DNA from: Candidatus Thorarchaeota archaeon
GTDB taxonomy: Archaea > Asgardarchaeota > Thorarchaeia > Thorarchaeales > Thorarchaeaceae
NCBI GenBank assembly: GCA_029855935.1
Contig: JAGSHN010000030.1
Coordinates: 39,528-103,527 of the forward strand
Reading direction: 5' to 3'
DNA length: 64,000 bases
Below, one piece after another: positions 38,695 through 49,608 of this stretch. The number at the start of each line of letters is the position of its first letter. Position 1 is the first letter of the stretch. The position numbers and the translations under genes were made by a program. Under the pieces are notes generated by a model, which was given only the letters and a program-made list of their open reading frames with translations, was not told where the DNA came from and made no database searches.

Positions 38695-38931
38695 TCACGC
38701 CTCCAGTGACTCGGCAAACGATCTTGGCGTGTACTCGAGAGCCTCTCTGCGCGCCTGAAGCTCCTCCCGCACTCTCTTCGTGACCCTGAACTCCTTCACA
38801 ATGTTCTGGACTATCTCACGCGCTGAGAGGTCGCCCCTCGTGAAGCCTATGGCCCCTGAGATGCAGAGGTTGGCGCACGTCTTGCAACCGATAATCAGAA
38901 CAAGGTGAGCGGGTGTATCAACAGAACAGTA
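38695..38931 (-). pseudogene. Start-less open frame with a CxxCxxxC motif downstream of vhuU
   Basis: An open frame of 78 codons follows an in-frame TAG at 38932-38934 and ends with TGA at 38695. It is strongly protein-like: VLIIGCKTCANLCISGAIGF, then GDLSAREIVQNIVKEF, and ends YTPRSFAESLEA. There is no ATG, GTG or TTG before the cysteine motif, and other frames upstream look non-coding. The motif could bind a metal or iron-sulfur cluster, but I do not recognise the family. It is either a gene fragment, a frameshifted gene, or a gene with an unusual start. It is in line with the vhu operon, about 100 bp after vhuU. Confidence 0.5.
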
Positions 38932-39034
38932 CTACGACTGCTCAGAGATTGGGAAACAAAGTCGTGAGGAAGGAGGGCAATTGGCAACCCTTGCGGGGTC
39001 GTCCGGCGTGGTCCCAACGGTTTGCGACCGGCCC

Positions 39035-39187
39035 TCATCCGCCGCCAGTCACCAGCTCCTTCCTTGCCAACTCGCGGCCCTCTTCGTCGACCACGACGAG
39101 ATGAGCGCCGCATGATAGTCAGCAGTCATAACAGCGGACTACCATCTCAATGAGATTCAGTAGTCCCTCTGGGATCTCTTCGCTCAT
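39035..39187 (-). CDS. vhuU: VhuU, selenocysteine-containing C-terminal piece of the [NiFe]-hydrogenase large subunit
   Basis: This 50-codon gene contains one in-frame TGA (39119-39121, codon 23). Read through, its start runs MSEEIPEGLLNLIEMVVR and the core is CYDC-Sec-LSCGAH. Hydrogenase large subunits end with an R-x-Y-D-P-C-x-x-C-x-x-H motif whose first Cys is a nickel ligand. Here R18, Y20, D21, L24, S25, C26 and H29 align and the TGA falls exactly on that Cys, while Pro is Cys22. VhuA upstream ends before this motif. VhuU as a separate selenopeptide is known from Methanococcales and reported in Lokiarchaeota. It starts 22 bp after vhuA, with GAGGA about 8-10 bp upstream. Sec incorporation is inferred; a TGA sequencing error is the alternative. 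A SECIS element should lie downstream. Confidence 0.85.
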
Positions 39188-39209: not shown

Positions 39210-40526
39210 CTATACCTTCACTATCGGGTCTGGGAGCTTGAGGTCCTTGTGACCCTGCTGTTCAAAGATGAATCTCGCAGCGTCCATCAGACTCTTCTCG
39301 ATCCCAGCAATGTTGTTGTTCGTGGCAACTATGAGGTTGGCCCGGACGATATATCCGTTCTCATCGCACTCATAGTTGTGGATCAGCGTACCGCGCGGGG
39401 CCTCTACTATGCCGACACCGTCGCCAGCACGCGGCTCCACGTCTGACAGCTTGACGTCGGTGCTCACAATCTCTGGGTCCTCAAGCAACGCCTGAATGTT
39501 CTCTGCGGCCTGGACCATCTCGACGACACGCGCGTAGTGGTAGGCGAACGTGTGATGCGATGGCCGGCCCACAAGTTCCCGCATCTCCTCAAGCGCAGCC
39601 TGCGCCATCGGTGTCGCCATCTTGTCGGCCACATTGCAGCGGGCGAGCGTGTTGGCGCGCCAGATGCCATCCGGGTATCCTGCTGGCCTGTAGTAGATGT
39701 GCGTCGCGTACGAGTGGTTCGGTACGTGCTCGCCCACATACTTCGGATAGTCCTGTGGATCAAAGTCCACCTCGACCTTGCCGTCGGGGTTCATCACGCG
39801 GACCTTGCCATCGTAGATGTCGTGGACACCGTTGTTGGTCAGGCCCACGTAGTAAGTCGGCGTGACAGCGACCTTTGTGATGACATCGATGTAGTCGTTG
39901 ACGACCTTCTTTGCCAGGTCGACCGTCTTCTGTAGATTCTCCATCATCTCAGGGATCTGCTTGAGCCACTCGTCACGGACATCCTCTGACAGCGGACTCA
40001 GCATTCCACCGGGAATGCCCAGCGTTGGATGAATCGCCTTCGCGCCGACGGCCCTGCAGAGTTCCTGACCGAACTGCATCAACTTGATTGCCTGTACTGC
40101 GACATCCGGCAGATGCTTGAGAACGCCCGCCACGTTCCTGACGCCCGGAGGCGCGAACGGACCGAACACAAAGTCTGGCGCCGCGAGGGCGTAGAAGTGA
40201 ATCGCGTGGGATGAGAGCTGCTTTGCCTCGATAAGCAGCCTTCGCAACTTTATCGCCGCGGGAGGCGGAGTCACTCCCCACGCGGCCTCGACGGCCTTCA
40301 CAGAGGCGAGGTGGTGCGGAATCGGACAGATACCGCAGATTCTCGGTACAATCCGCGGTGCCTCCTCCATCGGGCGGCCCTCGAGGAACTTCTCAAAGAA
40401 CCTGGTGCTCGTCACGTTGAACTGAACGTCCTTGACCTTGCCGTCCTTGCCGAGGGTAATGGTCAGAGCTCCGTGGCCCTCAAGACGCGTGACGGGGTCT
40501 ATCTTGATGACTCTCTCTTCGGTCAT
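39210..40526 (-). CDS. vhuA: VhuA/MvhA-type [NiFe]-hydrogenase large subunit lacking its C-terminal motif
   Basis: This 438-residue protein is the catalytic subunit: DPVTRLEGHGALTI at the N-terminus and the proximal Ni-binding motif RICGICPIPHHLASVKAVE (~62), then SHAIHFYALAAPDF, GTLIHNYECDENGYIVRANLIVATNNN. It stops at LPDPIVKV without the distal DPCxxCxxH motif that normal subunits carry at their C-terminus. That motif is supplied by vhuU directly downstream, as in Methanococcus Vhu hydrogenase. With no C-terminal extension, no maturation protease cut would be needed on this polypeptide. It overlaps vhuG by 4 bp. Confidence 0.93.
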   Translation of the reverse strand: MTEERVIKIDPVTRLEGHGALTITLGKDGKVKDVQFNVTSTRFFEKFLEGRPMEEAPRIVPRICGICPIPHHLASVKAVEAAWGVTPPPAAIKLRRLLIEAKQLSSHAIHFYALAAPDFVFGPFAPPGVRNVAGVLKHLPDVAVQAIKLMQFGQELCRAVGAKAIHPTLGIPGGMLSPLSEDVRDEWLKQIPEMMENLQKTVDLAKKVVNDYIDVITKVAVTPTYYVGLTNNGVHDIYDGKVRVMNPDGKVEVDFDPQDYPKYVGEHVPNHSYATHIYYRPAGYPDGIWRANTLARCNVADKMATPMAQAALEEMRELVGRPSHHTFAYHYARVVEMVQAAENIQALLEDPEIVSTDVKLSDVEPRAGDGVGIVEAPRGTLIHNYECDENGYIVRANLIVATNNNIAGIEKSLMDAARFIFEQQGHKDLKLPDPIVKV

Positions 40527-41446
40527 TTGGTCTTTGCCTCCTCACGACGAATGCGTATCCTGCCCAGATGGCTGGACGGGTAGGAGAATCTCCAGAACAT
40601 ACCAAGTGGGTCCTTACACTTCTCAAGTATCTTGTCCGGCTCAATTGGAGCATAGGTCCCCAGCATGCCTACTCCGGCCGCGCCCTGGTCCTGAGAAATT
40701 GGCGGTACGGGGCCAAAACAGCCCCTGCACGTTGCACCGCGATTCACGCACTGTCCCTCGCAGAGGCCCCACGTGGCCGAACCGAGGCAGACGTATCCCT
40801 GTTCGAGCAGGCACCTGTCGGGGTCGGCGACGCCCTCGTACGGACGGAGGATCTCGGGGATGGGCGTCTCCTTCTTCTCCCGGTTGCAGTAGTGGCAGAC
40901 AGCATATGGCGGGAGCTCGATCTCCTTACCCTCGAGAAGGGCGCTGACAGCTGTGAAGATCAGGTCAGAGGTGGGCGGACAACCTGGAAGGTAGATGTCA
41001 AAGTCCACATAGTCGCTATTCGGCCGGATGACTGGCTCGAAGGGCGGCACGTTCTCGGTGGGCACCTGACCCCCACTGACTGTCTTGTTGTCCTTGAATT
41101 TCACCTTGAGCGCGTCCTCAATGTCATAGAAGTTGGCAAGTCCGGGTATGCCACCGAAGCACGAACACGAGCCGAACGCTATCAGCGTCTTGCACTTCTT
41201 CCTCATCGTCTTGAGAAGATGCAGGTCCTCCTCCGTTCTCGCAACGCCCTCGTAGAAGCCAACGGCTATCGACCCGTCGGGATAGGACTCTAGGTCTTTG
41301 TGCTTGAAGTCAGCGACACACGCCCAGAACTTGATGTCCAGCTTCGGCAGGACATCAGCCAGTCTCAGATGAATGTCCACCAGACTCTGATAACAGCCCC
41401 AGCAGGAGCTGCCCTGGCCCATGGCCACAGACACCGGTTCGGTCAA
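40523..41446 (-). CDS. vhuG: VhuG/MvhG-type hydrogenase small subunit
   Basis: This 307-residue iron-sulfur subunit has the [NiFe]-hydrogenase small subunit pattern: GSSCWGCYQSLVDIH at the N-terminus (proximal cluster), FGSCSCFGGIPGLANF, YLPGCPPTSDLI, AVCHYCNRE, GYVCLGSATWGLCEGQC and GATCRGCFGPVPP. It has no Tat signal, so it is cytoplasmic like Mvh. TTG 41446 is the start, with AGGAGG 7 bp upstream. It passes electrons from VhuA to VhuD and on to HdrA. Confidence 0.94.
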   Translation of the reverse strand: MTEPVSVAMGQGSSCWGCYQSLVDIHLRLADVLPKLDIKFWACVADFKHKDLESYPDGSIAVGFYEGVARTEEDLHLLKTMRKKCKTLIAFGSCSCFGGIPGLANFYDIEDALKVKFKDNKTVSGGQVPTENVPPFEPVIRPNSDYVDFDIYLPGCPPTSDLIFTAVSALLEGKEIELPPYAVCHYCNREKKETPIPEILRPYEGVADPDRCLLEQGYVCLGSATWGLCEGQCVNRGATCRGCFGPVPPISQDQGAAGVGMLGTYAPIEPDKILEKCKDPLGMFWRFSYPSSHLGRIRIRREEAKTK

Positions 41447-41688
41447 TTCCTAACCTCCTTCTTTTGGTAGATAAGCTCCTTTCCGTTCTGTCCGGCAATC
41501 TCCACCTCGCCCCACTTCACGAGACCCAAGAGATTCCAGACTATGAGTTCCTTAGGAAGGTCTGTCCGCTCGGCCAAGTCGCTGACCGTGGCCGGTCCAA
41601 GCGTCAGTGCCTCAGTGATCATTCGACGCTGCCTTCGTACGTCACCGCGATTCTCCTGGAAGAACTTCCTGAACACTGTCATCTCCAT
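41443..41688 (-). CDS. Small winged-helix protein inside the Vhu operon
   Basis: This 81-residue protein has a clear winged-helix pattern (RMITEALTLGPATVSDLAER, then LPKELIVWNLLGLVKWGEVE). It overlaps vhuD by 10 bp upstream and vhuG by 4 bp downstream, so it is made with the hydrogenase. It could be a local regulator or, since HTH folds also serve as protein interfaces, an assembly factor. The operon place is unusual for Mvh/Vhu systems. Its start ATG could be residue 1 or 3. Confidence 0.75.
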   Translation of the reverse strand: MEMTVFRKFFQENRGDVRRQRRMITEALTLGPATVSDLAERTDLPKELIVWNLLGLVKWGEVEIAGQNGKELIYQKKEVRN

Positions 41689-42125
41689 TGCCCCCTGAGA
41701 GGTCCTAGCTTGCGCACCTGCTCCGTCAGAAGCGTGACCCCGTCAGCAAAGATCTGTGCCTCCGAGGCACTTGCCCACTGTAGCCGAATTCGTCGGGGAT
41801 CAATGCCCGCCTGCTCGACTGCCCTCTTGATGAGGGCCCAGCGCGCACGCATCTTCAGGTTGCCACTTGTGTAGTGGCAGTCGCCCGGATGACAACCGGA
41901 CACGAGTACACCATCTGCACCCATATCCAGTGCAGCAAGTATGAACTCCGGGTCAATCCGTCCTGTGCAGTTGACTCTGATTATCCTCGCATTTGGCGGA
42001 TACTGTATCCTGCTCGTCCCAGCAAGGTCCGCTCCCGCGTAGGAGCACCAGTTGCAGCAGAACGCCACGATCTTGGGCTCCCAGTCCTCGCTGGTGGTCT
42101 TCGTCTCCTGTGCCGCTTCGGTCAT
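41679..42125 (-). CDS. vhuD: VhuD/MvhD hydrogenase delta subunit
   Basis: This 148-residue protein has the MvhD motifs IVAFCCNWCSYAGADLAGTS, RVNCTGRIDPEFI, and VSGCHPGDCHYTSGN. The [2Fe-2S]-binding cysteines are all ordinary Cys; no UGA interrupts the frame, unlike some VhuD homologues that carry selenocysteine. It links the hydrogenase small subunit to HdrA, electrons flowing to the bifurcating flavin. It overlaps hdrA(b) by 4 bp and has GAGGTGAG upstream. Confidence 0.95.
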   Translation of the reverse strand: MTEAAQETKTTSEDWEPKIVAFCCNWCSYAGADLAGTSRIQYPPNARIIRVNCTGRIDPEFILAALDMGADGVLVSGCHPGDCHYTSGNLKMRARWALIKRAVEQAGIDPRRIRLQWASASEAQIFADGVTLLTEQVRKLGPLRGQWR

Positions 42126-43870
42126 CTTGCCTCACCTCCGCTCATCTGCGCGGGCATCAGAAGTGCCTCTACCATCGACAGTATCTGGTCGTCAGTCGAG
42201 TGCAGCATCGTTATCGCACCACTGGGACAGCCCGCTGCACAAGTCCCACAACCGTGGCACTTGGCCTCGGTGACGTGAGCCACAGGGGGATCATGCGACT
42301 CGTCTATCGACATTGCTCCGTACGGACAGGCTGTGATGCACGTGTGACAGGACGAACACACATCGGGATTCACGCTTGCAACGGTCGACTCAATCTCGAC
42401 CTCGCCGCGGGCAAGCAGCGCAGCGGCCTTCGCCGCAGCCCCACTCGCATCCACGACCGTCTCCGAGGCGTTCTTTGCGGCCTGAGCAACACCTGCTATC
42501 ATAATGCCTGCAGTGTGAGTTGTGAGAGGAGCGAGCTTGATGTGCTCGGGGTTGAAGAATCCGTCACTGCTCCTCGTGAGGCTGAATATCTTGGCAATCT
42601 CCTCAACGTCCTCCGGTGGGACCATTGCCGACGCCAAGACGAGGATGTCTGGCTTGAACTCCAGCAGGTCGTCAGCGAGAACATCGCGCCATCGCATCGT
42701 TATCTTGCCTCTCTTCACCCAGACCTCCGGGCGCTCGTCAGGATTGTACTTGCTGAATATGACGCGTTTCTCTCTCGCAAGTCTGTGGATCTCCTCGTGA
42801 CCACGGCCGTAGGTGCGCACATCCTGATAGAGTACGACCACCTCATCGACTCGGTCCTTCAGGTCAGAGGCCGCCTTTGCAACGGCCGAACAGCAATAGC
42901 GGGAGCAGTGCTCGTGACCCTTGACGCCCGGCTCTCGCGACCCAACACAACCGATGAAGGCGAGCTTCTTCGCGGGCTTGCCATCACTGGGCCGCAAGAG
43001 CTCGTCGCTTGGTGGCATCTCCTGTAGCTCGGCCAGGGTCATTATGTCGGGCGAGTCCTCGTATGCATAGTATCCGATCGGCTTGAACGGCTCGAAGCCT
43101 GTGGCAACAATCACGGCTCCGACCTTGACCTTGTGTTCCTCGCCGGTCTTGTTACTCTTGATGGTGATGTCAAAGTTGCCAATGTAGCCATCCAGCGCGG
43201 TCACCTTGCTATCAGTATAGACCGTGATGAGGTCGTGGTCCATCACCTCGTCAATCATCGGCGAGACGACCTCCCGACCGGACCTGTCAGCCGGGAACAT
43301 ATGGGTCCAGTGGATGACGTGCCCGCCCAGCTGCGGGCGCTTCTCCACAAGGACGACCTCGAAGCCTCTGTCTGCAATGTCCAGTGCAGCGCGCAGACCA
43401 GCGATGCCACCACCGACAACAAGTGCGCGAGGAGTCACCTGCACCGTCTTGACAGGGATACTCTCCAGTCTTGCTGCTCGTGCCACAGACATCCTGACAA
43501 GGTCGATGGCCTTCTCGGTGGCCGCCTCAGGCTCGTGCATGTGACACCACGAGACGTGCTCGCGGAGGTTGACCTGCTCGTACAGGTACCTGTTCAGACC
43601 GCCCTCCTCGACAACGCGACGAAATGTCGGCTCGTGCATTCTCGGCGAGCAGCTTGCCACAACGACACGGTTCAGGCCGTGCTCTTTGATCTTGTCACGG
43701 ATGAGCTGCTGGCCCGAGTCAGAACACATGAACATCTCGTCAGTTGAGAAGACCACGTGTGGAAATGTCGCGGCCACCTTGGCCACTCGCTCCACATCCA
43801 CTGTGCCAGCTATGTTATGCCCACAGTGGCACACAAACACGCCAATCCTTGGCTCCTCGCTCTCAGTCAA
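42122..43870 (-). CDS. hdrA: HdrA(b): HdrA with N-terminal and C-terminal domains but no inserted ferredoxin
   Basis: This 582-residue HdrA has the N-terminal cluster domain (IGVFVCHCGHNIAG), FAD motif VVGGGIAGLRAALDIADRG, IGCVGSREPG and C-terminal two-cluster ferredoxin (VCSSCHTCITACPYGAM and CHGCGTCAAGCPSGAI). The usual cysteine segment after KTFPT is replaced by HMFPADRSGREVVSP, and the inserted ferredoxin is missing. These are the parts carried by the preceding hdrA(a). The two likely form a heterodimer in place of the usual homodimer. It abuts hdrA(a) directly, with no gap. Confidence 0.9.
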   Translation of the reverse strand: MTESEEPRIGVFVCHCGHNIAGTVDVERVAKVAATFPHVVFSTDEMFMCSDSGQQLIRDKIKEHGLNRVVVASCSPRMHEPTFRRVVEEGGLNRYLYEQVNLREHVSWCHMHEPEAATEKAIDLVRMSVARAARLESIPVKTVQVTPRALVVGGGIAGLRAALDIADRGFEVVLVEKRPQLGGHVIHWTHMFPADRSGREVVSPMIDEVMDHDLITVYTDSKVTALDGYIGNFDITIKSNKTGEEHKVKVGAVIVATGFEPFKPIGYYAYEDSPDIMTLAELQEMPPSDELLRPSDGKPAKKLAFIGCVGSREPGVKGHEHCSRYCCSAVAKAASDLKDRVDEVVVLYQDVRTYGRGHEEIHRLAREKRVIFSKYNPDERPEVWVKRGKITMRWRDVLADDLLEFKPDILVLASAMVPPEDVEEIAKIFSLTRSSDGFFNPEHIKLAPLTTHTAGIMIAGVAQAAKNASETVVDASGAAAKAAALLARGEVEIESTVASVNPDVCSSCHTCITACPYGAMSIDESHDPPVAHVTEAKCHGCGTCAAGCPSGAITMLHSTDDQILSMVEALLMPAQMSGGEAR

Positions 43871-45184
43871 TCACTTGGCACCTCCGGAAGACAACAGTAT
43901 GGTTGCGCGCATTGCAGCCGCGCTGCCTGCGGTGACAGAGTCCGGAATGTCCTTCGGGCCGTCAGCGCAGCCGCAGACGAGAACGCCTGGGTGATCGGTC
44001 TCCAGCGGAGCCGTGAGGGCATCTCTGATCTCGACGTAGCCGTCTTCTGAGGTGCGAAGACCCAGCATCTCTGCGAGCCTGTGAAGGTCGTCTGCAGGCT
44101 GCAGACCCGGGCAGAGAACGACGAGATCGTGCTCGACATTGAGTATCCTGCCCGAGAGCGTATCCTCGACCTCGAACCTAAGGTTCTGAGTCTCAGGGTC
44201 CTCGATGATCTCACCCACACGTCCCTTTACAAAGTTCACACCGAATCTTGACCGGGCCATCTCATAGAACTCCTCGAAGCCCTTTCCAAAGGCCCGGATG
44301 TCAGCATAATAGACGCTGACCTCGGCATCAGGGTCGTGCTCACGGGCCATCACGGCGTTCTTGACACCGTACATGCAACACACCCGTGAGCAGTTCGGAA
44401 CACCCTTCTTTACGTCCCTCGCCCCGACACACTGGATGAACGCAATACGTTTCGGAACAGCTCCGTCAGTCAGACGGATGAGATGGCCGTTCGTCGGACC
44501 GGCTGCATTGATGAGACGCTCGAACTCCATCGCGGTTATGACGTTGGGGTACCTCCCGTAGCCGTACCGTGGATACTTGCGGACATCGAAGAGCCGGTAG
44601 CCCGTCGACAGGATAATCACGCCCACGTGCAGCTCCACTGTCGAGTCTTGCATGTCAAGGTCGATGGCGCCTCTCTCACAGACGCGGACGCACCTCTTGC
44701 ATCTTATGCAGGCCGAACTATCGATTGTGTACACGTTCGGTGTCGACTGCGGAAACATGACATAGATGGCCTTTCTGAACCCGAGGCCCTCATCAAACTC
44801 ATTGGGAACCTCGACGGGGCACTCACGCGCGCAGTCACCGCATCCTGAACACTTTGTCTCGTCGACAAAGCGGGCCTTCCTCCTGACACGCACACGCATG
44901 TCGCCAAGAGTTCCCTGGACGTGCTCGACCTCCGAGTAGGTGAGCAGCTCGATGTTGGGATGCCTTGCCACCTCGCTCAGGCGCGGTGTCAGAATACACG
45001 CCGAGCAGTCAAGTGTAGGAAACGTCTTGTCCAGTGCGGCCATTCTCCCGCCTATTGACGGGTTCTTCTCCACAAGGTACACTCTGTATCCTTGGTTGGC
45101 GGCATCAAGTGCGGCCTGCATGCCGGCCACGCCACCGCCCACGACCAGTATTGACTTCAATGCATCGTTGTTGGTGTCTACCAT
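43871..45184 (-). CDS. hdrA: HdrA(a): HdrA core with inserted ferredoxin, no terminal domains
   Basis: This 437-residue HdrA begins at once with the FAD motif ILVVGGGVAGMQAALDAANQ, then KTFPTLDCSACILTPRL with the bridging-cluster cysteines, CSGCGDCARECPVEV and CIRCKRCVRVCERGAI of the inserted ferredoxin, and ends after VCGCADGPKDIPDSVTAGS. It lacks the N-terminal CHCG domain and the C-terminal ferredoxins, both present in hdrA(b). The intact cysteines suggest that it carries the catalytic flavin path, with hdrA(b) delivering electrons. It is cotranscribed with hdrB upstream, sharing one base with it. Confidence 0.9.
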   Translation of the reverse strand: MVDTNNDALKSILVVGGGVAGMQAALDAANQGYRVYLVEKNPSIGGRMAALDKTFPTLDCSACILTPRLSEVARHPNIELLTYSEVEHVQGTLGDMRVRVRRKARFVDETKCSGCGDCARECPVEVPNEFDEGLGFRKAIYVMFPQSTPNVYTIDSSACIRCKRCVRVCERGAIDLDMQDSTVELHVGVIILSTGYRLFDVRKYPRYGYGRYPNVITAMEFERLINAAGPTNGHLIRLTDGAVPKRIAFIQCVGARDVKKGVPNCSRVCCMYGVKNAVMAREHDPDAEVSVYYADIRAFGKGFEEFYEMARSRFGVNFVKGRVGEIIEDPETQNLRFEVEDTLSGRILNVEHDLVVLCPGLQPADDLHRLAEMLGLRTSEDGYVEIRDALTAPLETDHPGVLVCGCADGPKDIPDSVTAGSAAAMRATILLSSGGAK

Positions 45185-46062
45185 TATCGCCCCTCCTGCA
45201 GTGCCTCCAACACAGAATCCGGGCTTATGCGGTTCATCTCAAAGCCAAGACGCTCCTCATCGATGCCCATCGCGGCACCGAGAAACTGTGTTATCGGCAT
45301 CACAGGGATTCTCTTCGAAGGCTTGATAGCCTCGTCGAACTGACACTGCGTCAGCTGCAGATCGCAGAACTCGCAGGCAGTCAGTATCACGTTGGCCCCA
45401 ACAAGCCCCACGTTGAATATCTTCTCCTGCCCGATCTTCGTCGCCACAGTGGTGTCCATGGCAAGCATTGGTCCTCCGCAGCAGCGGGTCTTGCCCGGGT
45501 AGTCAACAGCCTCCGCTCCTGCAATCTCGGCCAGACGGTCTATTATCGTCGGATTCTCCGGGTCATCCACCTGGACTATCTCAAAGGGTCTGGTCACGTG
45601 GCAGCCGTAGTGGGCCGCGATCTTCAGCCCATTGTAGGGACGGACGATGTGTCGCTCAATCTCGTCATAGCCAATCTCCTGAGCAAGAATCTGCAGGAGA
45701 TGCAACACTCTGGTCTTCCCGGTGTACTTCAGCCCCTCCTCAGCAAGGGTGTCATTGACCTTGCGACGAAGACCAGGGTCGTTGTCCAGGTTGTGCTTCG
45801 TGATCTTCAGCGAGCCTGAGCAGGCACCACACAGAGTGAGGATGTCCATCTCCTCGTCCTCAGCGAGGGCGAGGATTCGTCCGCCGATGACAGCAAAGGC
45901 GTCGGGGCTGAGGGACTCCACGAACTGTGCGCCGCAGCATGTCACGTCCTTCATCGGAATGGCCTTTACGCCCAGTTCCTTGAGGACATTCATGGTCGCC
46001 AGCTCATAGGCTGGCAGACGCACGGGTGTGGTGCAGCCTCTGTACAGTAGAATCTCTCTCAT
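45184..46062 (-). CDS. hdrB: HdrB-like subunit, second copy
   Basis: This protein of about 292 residues has two CCG modules: LYRGCTTPVRLPAYE, VTCCGAQFVESL, TLCGACSGSL, then HYGCHVTRPFE, TRCCGGPML and TACEFCDLQLTQC. It is the thiol-disulfide (heterodisulfide-like) catalytic subunit of the Vhu-Hdr complex. ATG 46062 is chosen because it overlaps the hdrC stop in an ATGA junction and the family begins there; the 20 upstream codons run inside hdrC. Confidence 0.94.
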   Translation of the reverse strand: MREILLYRGCTTPVRLPAYELATMNVLKELGVKAIPMKDVTCCGAQFVESLSPDAFAVIGGRILALAEDEEMDILTLCGACSGSLKITKHNLDNDPGLRRKVNDTLAEEGLKYTGKTRVLHLLQILAQEIGYDEIERHIVRPYNGLKIAAHYGCHVTRPFEIVQVDDPENPTIIDRLAEIAGAEAVDYPGKTRCCGGPMLAMDTTVATKIGQEKIFNVGLVGANVILTACEFCDLQLTQCQFDEAIKPSKRIPVMPITQFLGAAMGIDEERLGFEMNRISPDSVLEALQEGR

Positions 46063-46559
46063 TTCTCTCCCTCCGCTATCGGCAAGAGGTCCTTGATGCG
46101 TTTCAGGAACTTGTCGTTCCAACCAAGGTCGGGGTCAAGCCCCATATCCTCACGTTCCTCCTCCTCGAAGTCTGTGTACGAGTCCGCAAGCAGCCACCCG
46201 TTGTTGAGAAGTGAGTCCATCACCCGCCTGAACTCGGGAGGCACGTATCCCTCTCGTGCTGCGAGAATCCGAACGGCGTGGAACACCTCGGCAGGACTGA
46301 CACCCTCCTGACAGCGCTCCTCACAGAGCCGACACGTCATACACAGCCAGGGAAGTCTACTCTTCAGCACTTCCTCCCTCTCGCCAAGGAGGATCTTCTG
46401 AATCAGCTGGCGAGGCCGGTACTCATCGGTGTATCTCGCAACGGCGCAGCTTGCAGTGCAGATGCCGCACTGGATACACTTGTTGACGACCTCCCCGCCG
46501 GGAATAGCCGCCAGCTCCTCAGCAAAGCTTGAGGTTGGAACGTGAACCTTCTCAGTCAT
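46059..46559 (-). CDS. hdrC: HdrC-like ferredoxin subunit, second copy
   Basis: This 166-residue subunit has CIQCGICTASCAVARY (~27) and CMTCRLCEERCQEGV (~72). In the first motif the fourth cysteine is followed by Ala rather than the usual Pro. It heads the HdrCBA-Vhu operon, 262 bp after the HdrA-GltD gene, and that gap contains AT-rich candidate promoter sequence near 46650-46680. Its partner is the HdrB directly downstream. Confidence 0.93.
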   Translation of the reverse strand: MTEKVHVPTSSFAEELAAIPGGEVVNKCIQCGICTASCAVARYTDEYRPRQLIQKILLGEREEVLKSRLPWLCMTCRLCEERCQEGVSPAEVFHAVRILAAREGYVPPEFRRVMDSLLNNGWLLADSYTDFEEEEREDMGLDPDLGWNDKFLKRIKDLLPIAEGEK

Positions 46560-46821: not shown

Positions 46822-49608
46822 TCACGCAGATGTCGTCTTCTGGTGACGGACCACTTCGACCGGCTGCCCGGACTCGCTGGCTATCTGACTGAGAACCAGC
46901 GTCGCGTGCATCGCAGCAGCACTGCCAGCAGTCACACTGTCCGGAATGTCCTTTGGCCCGCTCGCACAGCCGCAGACGAAGATGCCCGGCACTCCTGTGT
47001 CTACAGGAGCCGCAATCTCATCCTTCACGGCAACGAAACCGTCCTGACCTAGCTCGATGCCAAGCTCCTCAGCCAGACGTGCTGTGTCCGGAGAGGGTAC
47101 AACTCCCGGGCTGAGGACCACCAGGTCGTGACTCACCATCATCGGCTGATCGCGCTCGGTCTGCTCTACGAACAGGCTCAGGTCGTGAGAGTCGGGAGCC
47201 TCCCAGACCTCTCCAACGCGTCCGCGGACGAAGTTGATGCCAAAGCGCGTCTTCGCCATCTGGTAGAACTCCTCGAAGCCCTTCCCGAACGCACGGATGT
47301 CCGCATAGTAGACCGTCACCTGCGCCTCCGGGTTGTGCTCACGCGCCATCACCGCATTCTTGATGCCGTACATACAGCAGATCCGTCCACAGTCAGGAAC
47401 TCCCTTCTGAGTGTCACGTGCACCGACACACTGGATGAATGCGATGTTCCTTGGCTCCTTCCCGTCGCTCGGCCGGATGAGATGACCACGTGTCGGGCCA
47501 GACGCGTTGATCAGTCGCTCGAACTCCAGAGCATTGATCACGTTTGGATACTTGCCGTAGCCAAGCCGACCGTACTCCGACACGTCGAAGATCTTGTACC
47601 CCGTGGCCACCACGATGGCGCCCACGTCCAGCTCAATCTCCTCGTCCTTCATATCGTGATTGATTGCCTGCCGGTCGCACGCGTCGACACAGAGCTTGCA
47701 CTCACAACACACGGTGCACCCGAGACATCGGCCAGCCTCCTCGATTGCCTCCTCCTCTGAGAAGCCGAGCTCGACCTCCTCAAAGGACCTCTTGCGTTCC
47801 GCAATTCGTGCCTTGGGCATCACGTGCCGCTTCTGTGGTTCGAAGGTGGCCTCATCCACGTCGGGCTCTGCGGGCCTGTAGAGCTGGCCATTCCGACCCT
47901 CGGCAAGGTCCTCGCCGCGGAGGTATCGGTCAATGGAAATCGCTGCCTCCTTGCCGTGGCCCACCGCCTTGACTGCGGTTGAGGGTCCGAGAACGACATC
48001 TCCGCCAGCAAAGACGCCGGACACGCTCGTCTGCAGTGTCAACGGATCGACGACCACCGTTCCCCACTCTGTTCGCGCGACGTGCTCGAGCAGCTTCAGA
48101 CTGGGAACCTTCTGACCGATGGCAACGATGAGCGTGTCAAGCGCGACCGTGAACTCAGAATCAGGTATCGGCACCGGACGACGCCGGCCCGACAGGTCCT
48201 TCTTGCCCAGCTTCATCCGGATGCACTGTAGCCCCTTGAGCTCGCCCTTCTGCGTGATGAGCTTTGTGGGCGCAGTCATCATCATGAAGCGGACACCCTC
48301 CTGTCGGGCGTCCTCCACCTCGCTTGGAATCGCAGGAAGCTCTACCTGCGACCGACGGTAGATGAGGGTCACCTCCTCGGCACCGAGGCGCAGCGCCACA
48401 CGAGCTGAGTCGATCGCTGCGTCGCCGCCACCAATCACACCGACCCTCTTGCCAATCTTGACCTTCTCGCCGCGTGCCACGGCATCCAGAAAGTCTATTG
48501 CGTGATACACCCCCTTCGCATCCTCGCCGGGGATGCCCAGCTTCCTGCTCTCGGAGGCACCTGTCGAGATGAATATGGCCTTGAAGCCCTGCTCCTTCAG
48601 CCAGTCCAGCGACTCGACCTCCGTGTTGAAGACGAACTCCACACCCATCTTCTCGACGCGCTCGATCTCCTCCCGTAGGATGTCGCGTGGGAGCCTGTAC
48701 TCCGGGATTGCATAACGCATCAGACCGCCCGGCTCGGAGCGCTTCTCGAAGACCGTCACAGGATAGCCCATCCGCGCGAGATGGTACGCGCAGGCAATGC
48801 CCGCAGGGCCCGCTCCGACAATCGCGACCTTGTCCTTCTTTGTGATCTCCGCAGTGACCTCCTCGGTCTCGCCCTTCTCGCGCTCCCAGTCGGCGAGGAA
48901 CCTGTGCAGGTTGCGGATGCTCACGCTCTCATCGTAGTTGCCACGCCTGCAGTCGCCCTCACACCAGTGGACGCAGACACGACCGAGGGTGCCCGGGAAC
49001 GGCATCGCGTCGCGGACGATGTCGAGCGCGCGCTTGAAGTCGCCGACCTGGATCAGCCGAATGAAGGCCTGCGTGTTCACGCCTGTGGGACAGGCCAGTC
49101 TGCAGGCCGCATGGCCCCTCTTGTCAATTGTGTAGACGTGCGGAGTTGCCTGCGGGAAGGGCATGTAGGTGGCCTTCCTGAAGCCGAGTCCCTCATCAAA
49201 CTCGCTTGGCACCTCCACCGGACAGACCTTCTCGCACTCGCCACACCCGGAACATGCATCCTCGTCAATGTACCGGGCCCTTCTAACGATCTCCACGTGA
49301 AACTTGCCCACCTTGCCAGCGACACGCTTCACCTCGGAGTATGTCAGAAGGTCGATGTTGGGGTGGTGCGCCACCTCGCTGAGTCGCGGCGTCAGAATGC
49401 ACGCCGAACAGTCCAGCGTGGGAAATGTCTTGTCCAGCATAGCCATATGGCCGCCTATGGACGGGCTCTTCTCCACAAGATAAACATGATAACCCTGATT
49501 AGCAATGTCAAGGGCAGCCTGCATTCCAGCGACACCGCCCCCTATGACAAGCGCACTGGGAGTCTCAGGCTGTTCGAGTCCTCCTGTACTAGCCTCCTTA
49601 ACCGTCAT
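46822..49608 (-). CDS. HdrA with inserted GltD/NfnB-like NAD(P)H oxidoreductase module
   Basis: In this 928-residue protein, residues 1-170 are HdrA (LVIGGGVAGMQAALDIANQ, KTFPTLDCSACILTPRL, CSGCGECEKVCPVEV) and residues ~640-910 are the rest of HdrA (CELCKLCVDAC-like CECKLCVDACDRQAI, GAIVVATGYKIFDV, VCGCASGPKDIPDS). Between them sits a full GltD-like module: CRLACPTGVNTQAFIRLI, CVHWCEGDCRRGNYD, FAD motif AIVGAGPAGIACAYHLARM, NAD(P) motif VGVIGGGDAAIDSARVALRL and FAGGDVVLGPSTAVKAV. The insertion falls in the second ferredoxin domain. It should add an NAD(P)H site to a bifurcating HdrA. GGAGG is 8 bp before ATG 49608; AOR is divergent. Confidence 0.92.
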   Translation of the reverse strand: MTVKEASTGGLEQPETPSALVIGGGVAGMQAALDIANQGYHVYLVEKSPSIGGHMAMLDKTFPTLDCSACILTPRLSEVAHHPNIDLLTYSEVKRVAGKVGKFHVEIVRRARYIDEDACSGCGECEKVCPVEVPSEFDEGLGFRKATYMPFPQATPHVYTIDKRGHAACRLACPTGVNTQAFIRLIQVGDFKRALDIVRDAMPFPGTLGRVCVHWCEGDCRRGNYDESVSIRNLHRFLADWEREKGETEEVTAEITKKDKVAIVGAGPAGIACAYHLARMGYPVTVFEKRSEPGGLMRYAIPEYRLPRDILREEIERVEKMGVEFVFNTEVESLDWLKEQGFKAIFISTGASESRKLGIPGEDAKGVYHAIDFLDAVARGEKVKIGKRVGVIGGGDAAIDSARVALRLGAEEVTLIYRRSQVELPAIPSEVEDARQEGVRFMMMTAPTKLITQKGELKGLQCIRMKLGKKDLSGRRRPVPIPDSEFTVALDTLIVAIGQKVPSLKLLEHVARTEWGTVVVDPLTLQTSVSGVFAGGDVVLGPSTAVKAVGHGKEAAISIDRYLRGEDLAEGRNGQLYRPAEPDVDEATFEPQKRHVMPKARIAERKRSFEEVELGFSEEEAIEEAGRCLGCTVCCECKLCVDACDRQAINHDMKDEEIELDVGAIVVATGYKIFDVSEYGRLGYGKYPNVINALEFERLINASGPTRGHLIRPSDGKEPRNIAFIQCVGARDTQKGVPDCGRICCMYGIKNAVMAREHNPEAQVTVYYADIRAFGKGFEEFYQMAKTRFGINFVRGRVGEVWEAPDSHDLSLFVEQTERDQPMMVSHDLVVLSPGVVPSPDTARLAEELGIELGQDGFVAVKDEIAAPVDTGVPGIFVCGCASGPKDIPDSVTAGSAAAMHATLVLSQIASESGQPVEVVRHQKTTSA

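Follow-up and report, generated by a model that had tools for sequence, protein, structure and literature searches.

In the window, by which we mean the whole stretch of 64,000 nucleotides that was analysed, a hydrogenase large subunit gene ends without its distal nickel-binding motif, and the motif is found in a short downstream gene containing an in-frame UGA. The question raised by this locus is whether the UGA is read as selenocysteine (Sec) and whether the short peptide completes the nickel site of its neighbour. We are highly confident that vhuU would encode the C-terminus of the large subunit as a separate piece, with UGA codon 23 decoded as Sec via tRNA-Sec, SelB and a SECIS element, and that it would complete the nickel site of VhuA. 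This reading draws on the anatomy of the locus, the decoding machinery, the conservation of the UGA, the covariation of the SECIS and the homology to a solved split enzyme, each of which is established at the level of sequence. The gene is missed by ordinary annotation, and without the 50-codon peptide the nickel site of the adjoining hydrogenase is incomplete.

The vhuU gene and its operon

The vhuU gene is located at 39187-39035 on the minus strand. Translated with TGA as U it reads MSEEIPEGLLNLIEMVVRCYDC-U-LSCGAHLVVVDEEGRELARKELVTGGG-stop and contains the distal (L2) nickel-binding motif DC-U-LSC-GAH. It is a separate ORF of 50 codons situated directly downstream of vhuA, with a gap of 22 bp to the vhuA stop codon; coordinates, length and gap were given correctly in the preliminary description, which did not state the minus strand. 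The in-frame UGA is codon 23 (39121-39119, minus strand) and occupies the first Cys position of the C-terminal nickel-binding CxxC of [NiFe] hydrogenases, and the terminal UGA stop (39037-39035, minus strand) at the same time contributes to the AUGA core of the SECIS. The vhuA gene (40526-39210, minus strand) matches NF041785 VhuA with an E-value of 1.4e-152 and 508 bits (curated cut-off 800), and the best family for the VhuU peptide is NF041786 VhuU (E 1.1e-14, 53.9 bits, curated cut-off 70). The NCBI curated cut-offs of both families are probably tuned to methanogens.

VhuA ends in ...LKLPDPIVKV and the distal CxxC is absent. Its lack of the distal motif and the UGA in place of the first CxxC Cys, both claimed previously, were borne out by the translation and by alignment to solved structures. 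The closest solved enzyme is PDB 9sfi. Its 418-residue large subunit (chain g) matches the window's VhuA with an E-value of 1.3e-136, and the 27 residues of chain M align with residues 5-30 of VhuU, with an X at the position of the UGA, which is consistent with Sec. In 3zfs, 7t2r, 5odc, and 9sw2, the vhuU UGA aligns with the C of DPCLSC; 5odc and similar entries are Mvh-type hydrogenases.

All further genes of the operon are located on the minus strand as well. Beside vhuA, these are vhuG, encoding the hydrogenase small subunit (40523..41446; NF045875 VhuG, E 4e-70), vhuD/mvhD, encoding an iron-sulfur subunit in its Cys form without an in-frame UGA (41679..42125; PF02662, E 1e-52), two genes resembling heterodisulfide reductase subunit A, hdrA (42122..43870 and 43871..45184; NF040770, E 1.4e-168 and 1.2e-174, respectively), hdrB-like (45184..46122; TIGR03288, E 2.1e-67), hdrC-like (46059..46559; TIGR03290, E 3.6e-27), and a third hdrA that also encodes a GltD-like flavoprotein domain (46822..49608; NF040770, E 4.1e-174; NF009410, E 3.9e-159). 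Thus, with vhuG, vhuD, and hdrABC-like genes next to vhuA, the group 3c Vhu/Mvh-Hdr gene set is present. In the third hdrA, the GltD-like NAD(P)-binding flavoprotein domain sits inserted in the protein.

The first two hdrA genes share a frame and are split only by a TGA (43871-43873) followed directly by TTG. A recoded UGA was considered at this site and rejected: the frame is kept in one relative (G002), and three others differ in gap length and offer no simple in-frame codon. Judged from the compared sequences, the TGA at 43873-43871 is an ordinary stop/start junction. At 38698-38931 on the minus strand, an open stretch (DTPAHLVLIIGCKTCANLCISGAIGFTRGDLSAREIVQNIVKEF...) resembles a ferredoxin, has no start codon and is preceded in frame by a TAG. 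It is absent from the other loci compared and is probably a gene remnant.

Conservation and decoding of the UGA

At the stop codon frequency of the window, the 27 open codons that follow the UGA have a chance expectation of 46%. Since such a stretch is expected about half of the time, the case for vhuU rests on comparison and conservation. With the translation of 51 residues as query, 149 relatives were searched and VhuU was found in many Asgard families; nearly all full-length matches contain a single in-frame TGA; about 90 homologues share the TGA of vhuU. The named close relatives are mostly Candidatus Thorarchaeota, which makes a Thorarchaeia-type host the most likely one. The VhuU collection comprises 106 Asgard copies, 75 of them distinct at the DNA level, with some genomes present via two collections. 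All 106 copies have TGA as codon 23, a count that is not independent, as the copies were selected for the Sec motif/UGA. Residue 22 is Cys in 103 copies, Pro in two, and Asn in one; Cys22 in place of Pro, formerly described as unusual, is therefore the norm for Asgard VhuU. The stop codon is UGA (97 copies), UAA (7), or UAG (2), and the last four bases are ATGA in 91 of the 106. The proposed search for homologues with a UGA or a Cys codon also yielded two without UGA, L082 (G014:C68; RCYDCCLSCSAF) and L086 (G072:C227; RAYDCCLSCSAF), in both of which a Cys codon takes this position and the final motif His is changed to Phe.

In the Thorarchaeia-type family, pN/pS of vhuU amounts to 0.13 before the UGA and to 0.22 after it (codons 24-40). 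This purifying selection argues that the part following the UGA is translated protein, and together with the homologues it upholds the in-frame conservation claimed for this part. At the level of these comparisons vhuU is confirmed as a real and well-supported gene, and a base-call error at the UGA is excluded by its conservation across genomes of many families.

Absence of the Sec machinery would have spoken against Sec, and its components were searched for in the genome, which spans 2.97 Mb and is 97% complete. On contig C5, in a span of 6 kb, genes for SelB (283 bits, cut-off 242), SepSecS (437 bits, cut-off 225), Sel_Asgard, and a PSTK-like kinase are clustered with tRNA-Sec, which is located at C5:29220 and carries the anticodon TCA (UCA; 64.4 bits, cut-off 47). 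SelD is encoded on contig C21 (212 bits, cut-off 125) and contains an in-frame UGA of its own in the motif HGUSCK. The decoding set of tRNA-Sec, SelB/EFSec, SepSecS, and SelD is thus complete above curated cut-offs; the kinase next to tRNA-Sec reaches 140 bits for TIGR03574 (E 7.8e-41), which is below the cut-off of 290. Sel_Asgard, an NCBI family of putative selenocysteine system proteins, is encoded between SepSecS and tRNA-Sec (L025:8551-9186; 191 bits, cut-off 132). It is a candidate for the SECIS-binding factor that is still missing; no counterpart of SBP2, the eukaryotic SECIS-binding protein, is known in archaea (PMC11227280).

A SECIS-like RNA, unmentioned in the preliminary description, is situated at 38961..39073 on the minus strand. 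It comprises an AUGA..GGA core, an upper stem of 10 bp, an apical loop with unpaired AAA, a side hairpin, and an outer stem formed by GGAAGGAG/CTCCTTCC. The lower stems extend back into the last vhuU codons, and the AUGA ends in the terminal UGA stop, an overlap that has been published for Lokiarchaeia (PMC11227280). In an alignment of 114 nt around the terminal stop from 38 relatives, A36, T37, G38, and A39 (AUGA), A51 and A52 (apical loop), and G71 and A72 are invariant in all 38 sequences, as is the GAC on the 3' side of the core. The structure was assigned manually from this alignment, with shuffled and slid versions as subsequent controls: 88.5% of the cells pair, 78 two-sided changes contrast with 27.8 in the shuffles, and pairing falls below 50% if the 3' side is slid by 1-3 columns. 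The covariance model scores 87 bits in the window, whose sequence was among those used for training; in Asgard loci on which it was not trained (Helarchaeota, Lokiarchaeota, and others), it detects the element at the corresponding position with 21-54 bits. Neither RNAalifold nor single-sequence folds recovered the element by themselves, and no RNA family of Rfam matched in the window. With the covariance model no second SECIS was found in the genome, that of SelD included, which indicates that the model recognises the vhuU element specifically and is unsuited to finding SECIS elements in general. The features of an eSECIS-like element, namely an AUGA..GA core, unpaired apical adenines, a covarying upper stem, and a position 3' of the Sec codon, are all found. 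This eukaryote-like core counts among the intermediates cited in favour of the view that the Sec system of eukaryotes arose in archaea.

Considered on its own, the window, with a downstream stretch so readily left open by chance, is compatible with a dead or Cys-type gene whose UGA arose by a nonsense mutation or an assembly error. This explanation is refuted by the conservation of the UGA, as the same TGA recurs in the 106 Sec-motif copies (75 distinct), and purifying selection after the UGA, the conserved SECIS, and the Sec machinery of the genome speak against it as well; we give it practically no credence. A reading of the UGA as Trp or Cys, through a change of code or general suppression, would keep the frame open without Sec. 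Genes of this genome nevertheless terminate at UGA, among them vhuU itself, vhuA2 on contig C28, and the hdrA gene at the junction described above. Furthermore, a dedicated tRNA-Sec(UCA) exists, the recoded codon marks the exact Sec ligand position of [NiFeSe] hydrogenases, and a Cys codon takes its place in two relatives. Such read-through is thus scarcely less improbable than a mutation or error. Decoding as Sec, as claimed in the preliminary description, is supported by the machinery, the conserved UGA, and the covarying SECIS taken together.

In the reading as a Sec-containing peptide, the hydrogenase would be of the group 3c type (Vhu/Mvh) and act together with proteins resembling heterodisulfide reductase, and vhuU would encode the detached C-terminal end of its large subunit. 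Codon 23 would be translated as Sec by tRNA-Sec and SelB, and the decoding signal would be the SECIS, with a core 84 nt downstream that includes the gene's own terminal UGA. The peptide presumably binds VhuA, supplying Sec23 and Cys26 of the L2 motif, and Sec would serve as a nickel ligand alongside the CGIC cysteines of VhuA. Sec as a nickel ligand is established chemistry of [NiFeSe] hydrogenases. As in other [NiFe] hydrogenases, the tail, here the 21 residues after His29, would be removed on maturation, probably by a HycI-type protease, for which a gene is located at C14:202608. If cut off, this tail, encoded by the last codons, which are used in the lower stems of the SECIS, would be free to serve the RNA. 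A message in which one UGA is recoded and another terminates 84 nt further on represents a compact test case for the limits on recoding.

A second large subunit without adjacent vhuU

A second large subunit, VhuA2, is encoded at L027:7023-8336 on contig C28, in a second set of vhuA, vhuG and vhuD; a gene for aldehyde ferredoxin oxidoreductase lies nearby (L027:10511-12529). VhuA2 is intact, with the RICGIC and APRG motifs kept, and no VhuU was found near vhuA2 on either strand. The genome contains one vhuU in all; weak VhuU matches elsewhere (C28:223407, C27, and C15) did not qualify as VhuU in score, open frame, or context. A tree was built of 53 VhuA proteins; in the clade of the window's VhuA1 (26 rows), vhuU is always adjacent. 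In the VhuA2 clade it is adjacent in 5 cases and absent beside 10 (L027, L137, L138, L139, L141 (172 nt), L142, L144, L146, L147, and L167), and an eleventh locus, L149, has too little flanking DNA to tell. Such orphan vhuA2 genes recur in Thorarchaeia-type genomes, most of which contain vhuU only beside vhuA1. Both the CGIC and the APRG motif are retained in the orphans, on which purifying selection acts (pN/pS 0.15).

It is tempting to speculate that a single VhuU is shared in trans by VhuA1 of the window and VhuA2 of contig C28, which would extend the Sec-VhuU reading and is not contrary to it. The intact VhuA2 in a genome with one vhuU, the distribution over the two clades, and the selection on the orphans point in this direction, and sharing is the simplest reading; we hold it tentatively, as one that may well prove wrong. 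Against it, orphan VhuA2 could be an electron-transfer subunit that is not a hydrogenase, or could use another partner. In genome G014, moreover, VhuA2 is followed by the Cys version of VhuU that lacks the final His, and in genome G010 an orphan VhuA2 occurs with VhuU undetected, owing to loss or an assembly gap. Because of G010, a role of VhuA2 without a nickel site is possible. The proposal that in Thorarchaeia one VhuU completes both VhuA1 and a conserved VhuA2, which would have lost its own adjacent vhuU repeatedly, is likewise conjectural and rather less than an even prospect. If sharing in trans holds true, a nickel-binding peptide would serve two hydrogenases that have separate small subunits and gene clusters. 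The orphan pattern, which may be new, raises the testable question whether a catalytic-site peptide is shared.

Comparison with known systems

VhuU of the Methanococcales (the selenopeptide of the F420-non-reducing hydrogenase, NF041786) is likewise a separate short peptide encoded beside vhuA; Sec replaces the first Cys of its distal CxxC, and a SECIS is located 3' of the Sec codon. It differs in that DP-U is found there and DC-U in the window, and in its euryarchaeal GAA_A-type SECIS, compared to the eukaryote-like AUGA..GA type of the window; in addition, the window's peptide scores below the NCBI curated cut-off of that family. The split into VhuA and VhuU corresponds to the 418-residue large subunit and the 27-residue chain of PDB 9sfi/9t1s, except for the DP that precedes the X residue in these structures. 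MvhA of the Mvh-Hdr complexes (5odc, 7t2r, and 9sw2) belongs to the same large-subunit family, but its C-terminus is fused and contains Cys instead of Sec.

The closest correspondence is with the Asgard FrhA/MvhA/VhuU selenoproteins (Huang et al. 2024, PMC11227280; PMC11291895), which represent the same family in the same superphylum. According to papers of 2016-2026, including these two, Sec-containing VhuU/FrhA occurs in Asgard archaea. The family is reported for 68% of the Sec-using Asgard archaea (PMC11227280) and is tabulated in PMC13188914, and a VhuU of approximately 50 amino acids is named in PMC11291895. The window's vhuU is not named in the text of PMC11227280 and PMC11291895. Shared features are the eSECIS-like element with its AUGA_GA core and UGG_CCA lower-stem pairs, the overlap of stop codon and AUGA as in Lokiarchaeia, and the apical G[U/G]AAA of Thorarchaeia frhA (PMC11227280). 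The identification of a Sec-containing VhuU in the window is correct and ordinary for the lineage; the selenoprotein has already been published in Asgard archaea, and there is no essential difference between the family described there and the vhuU of the window.
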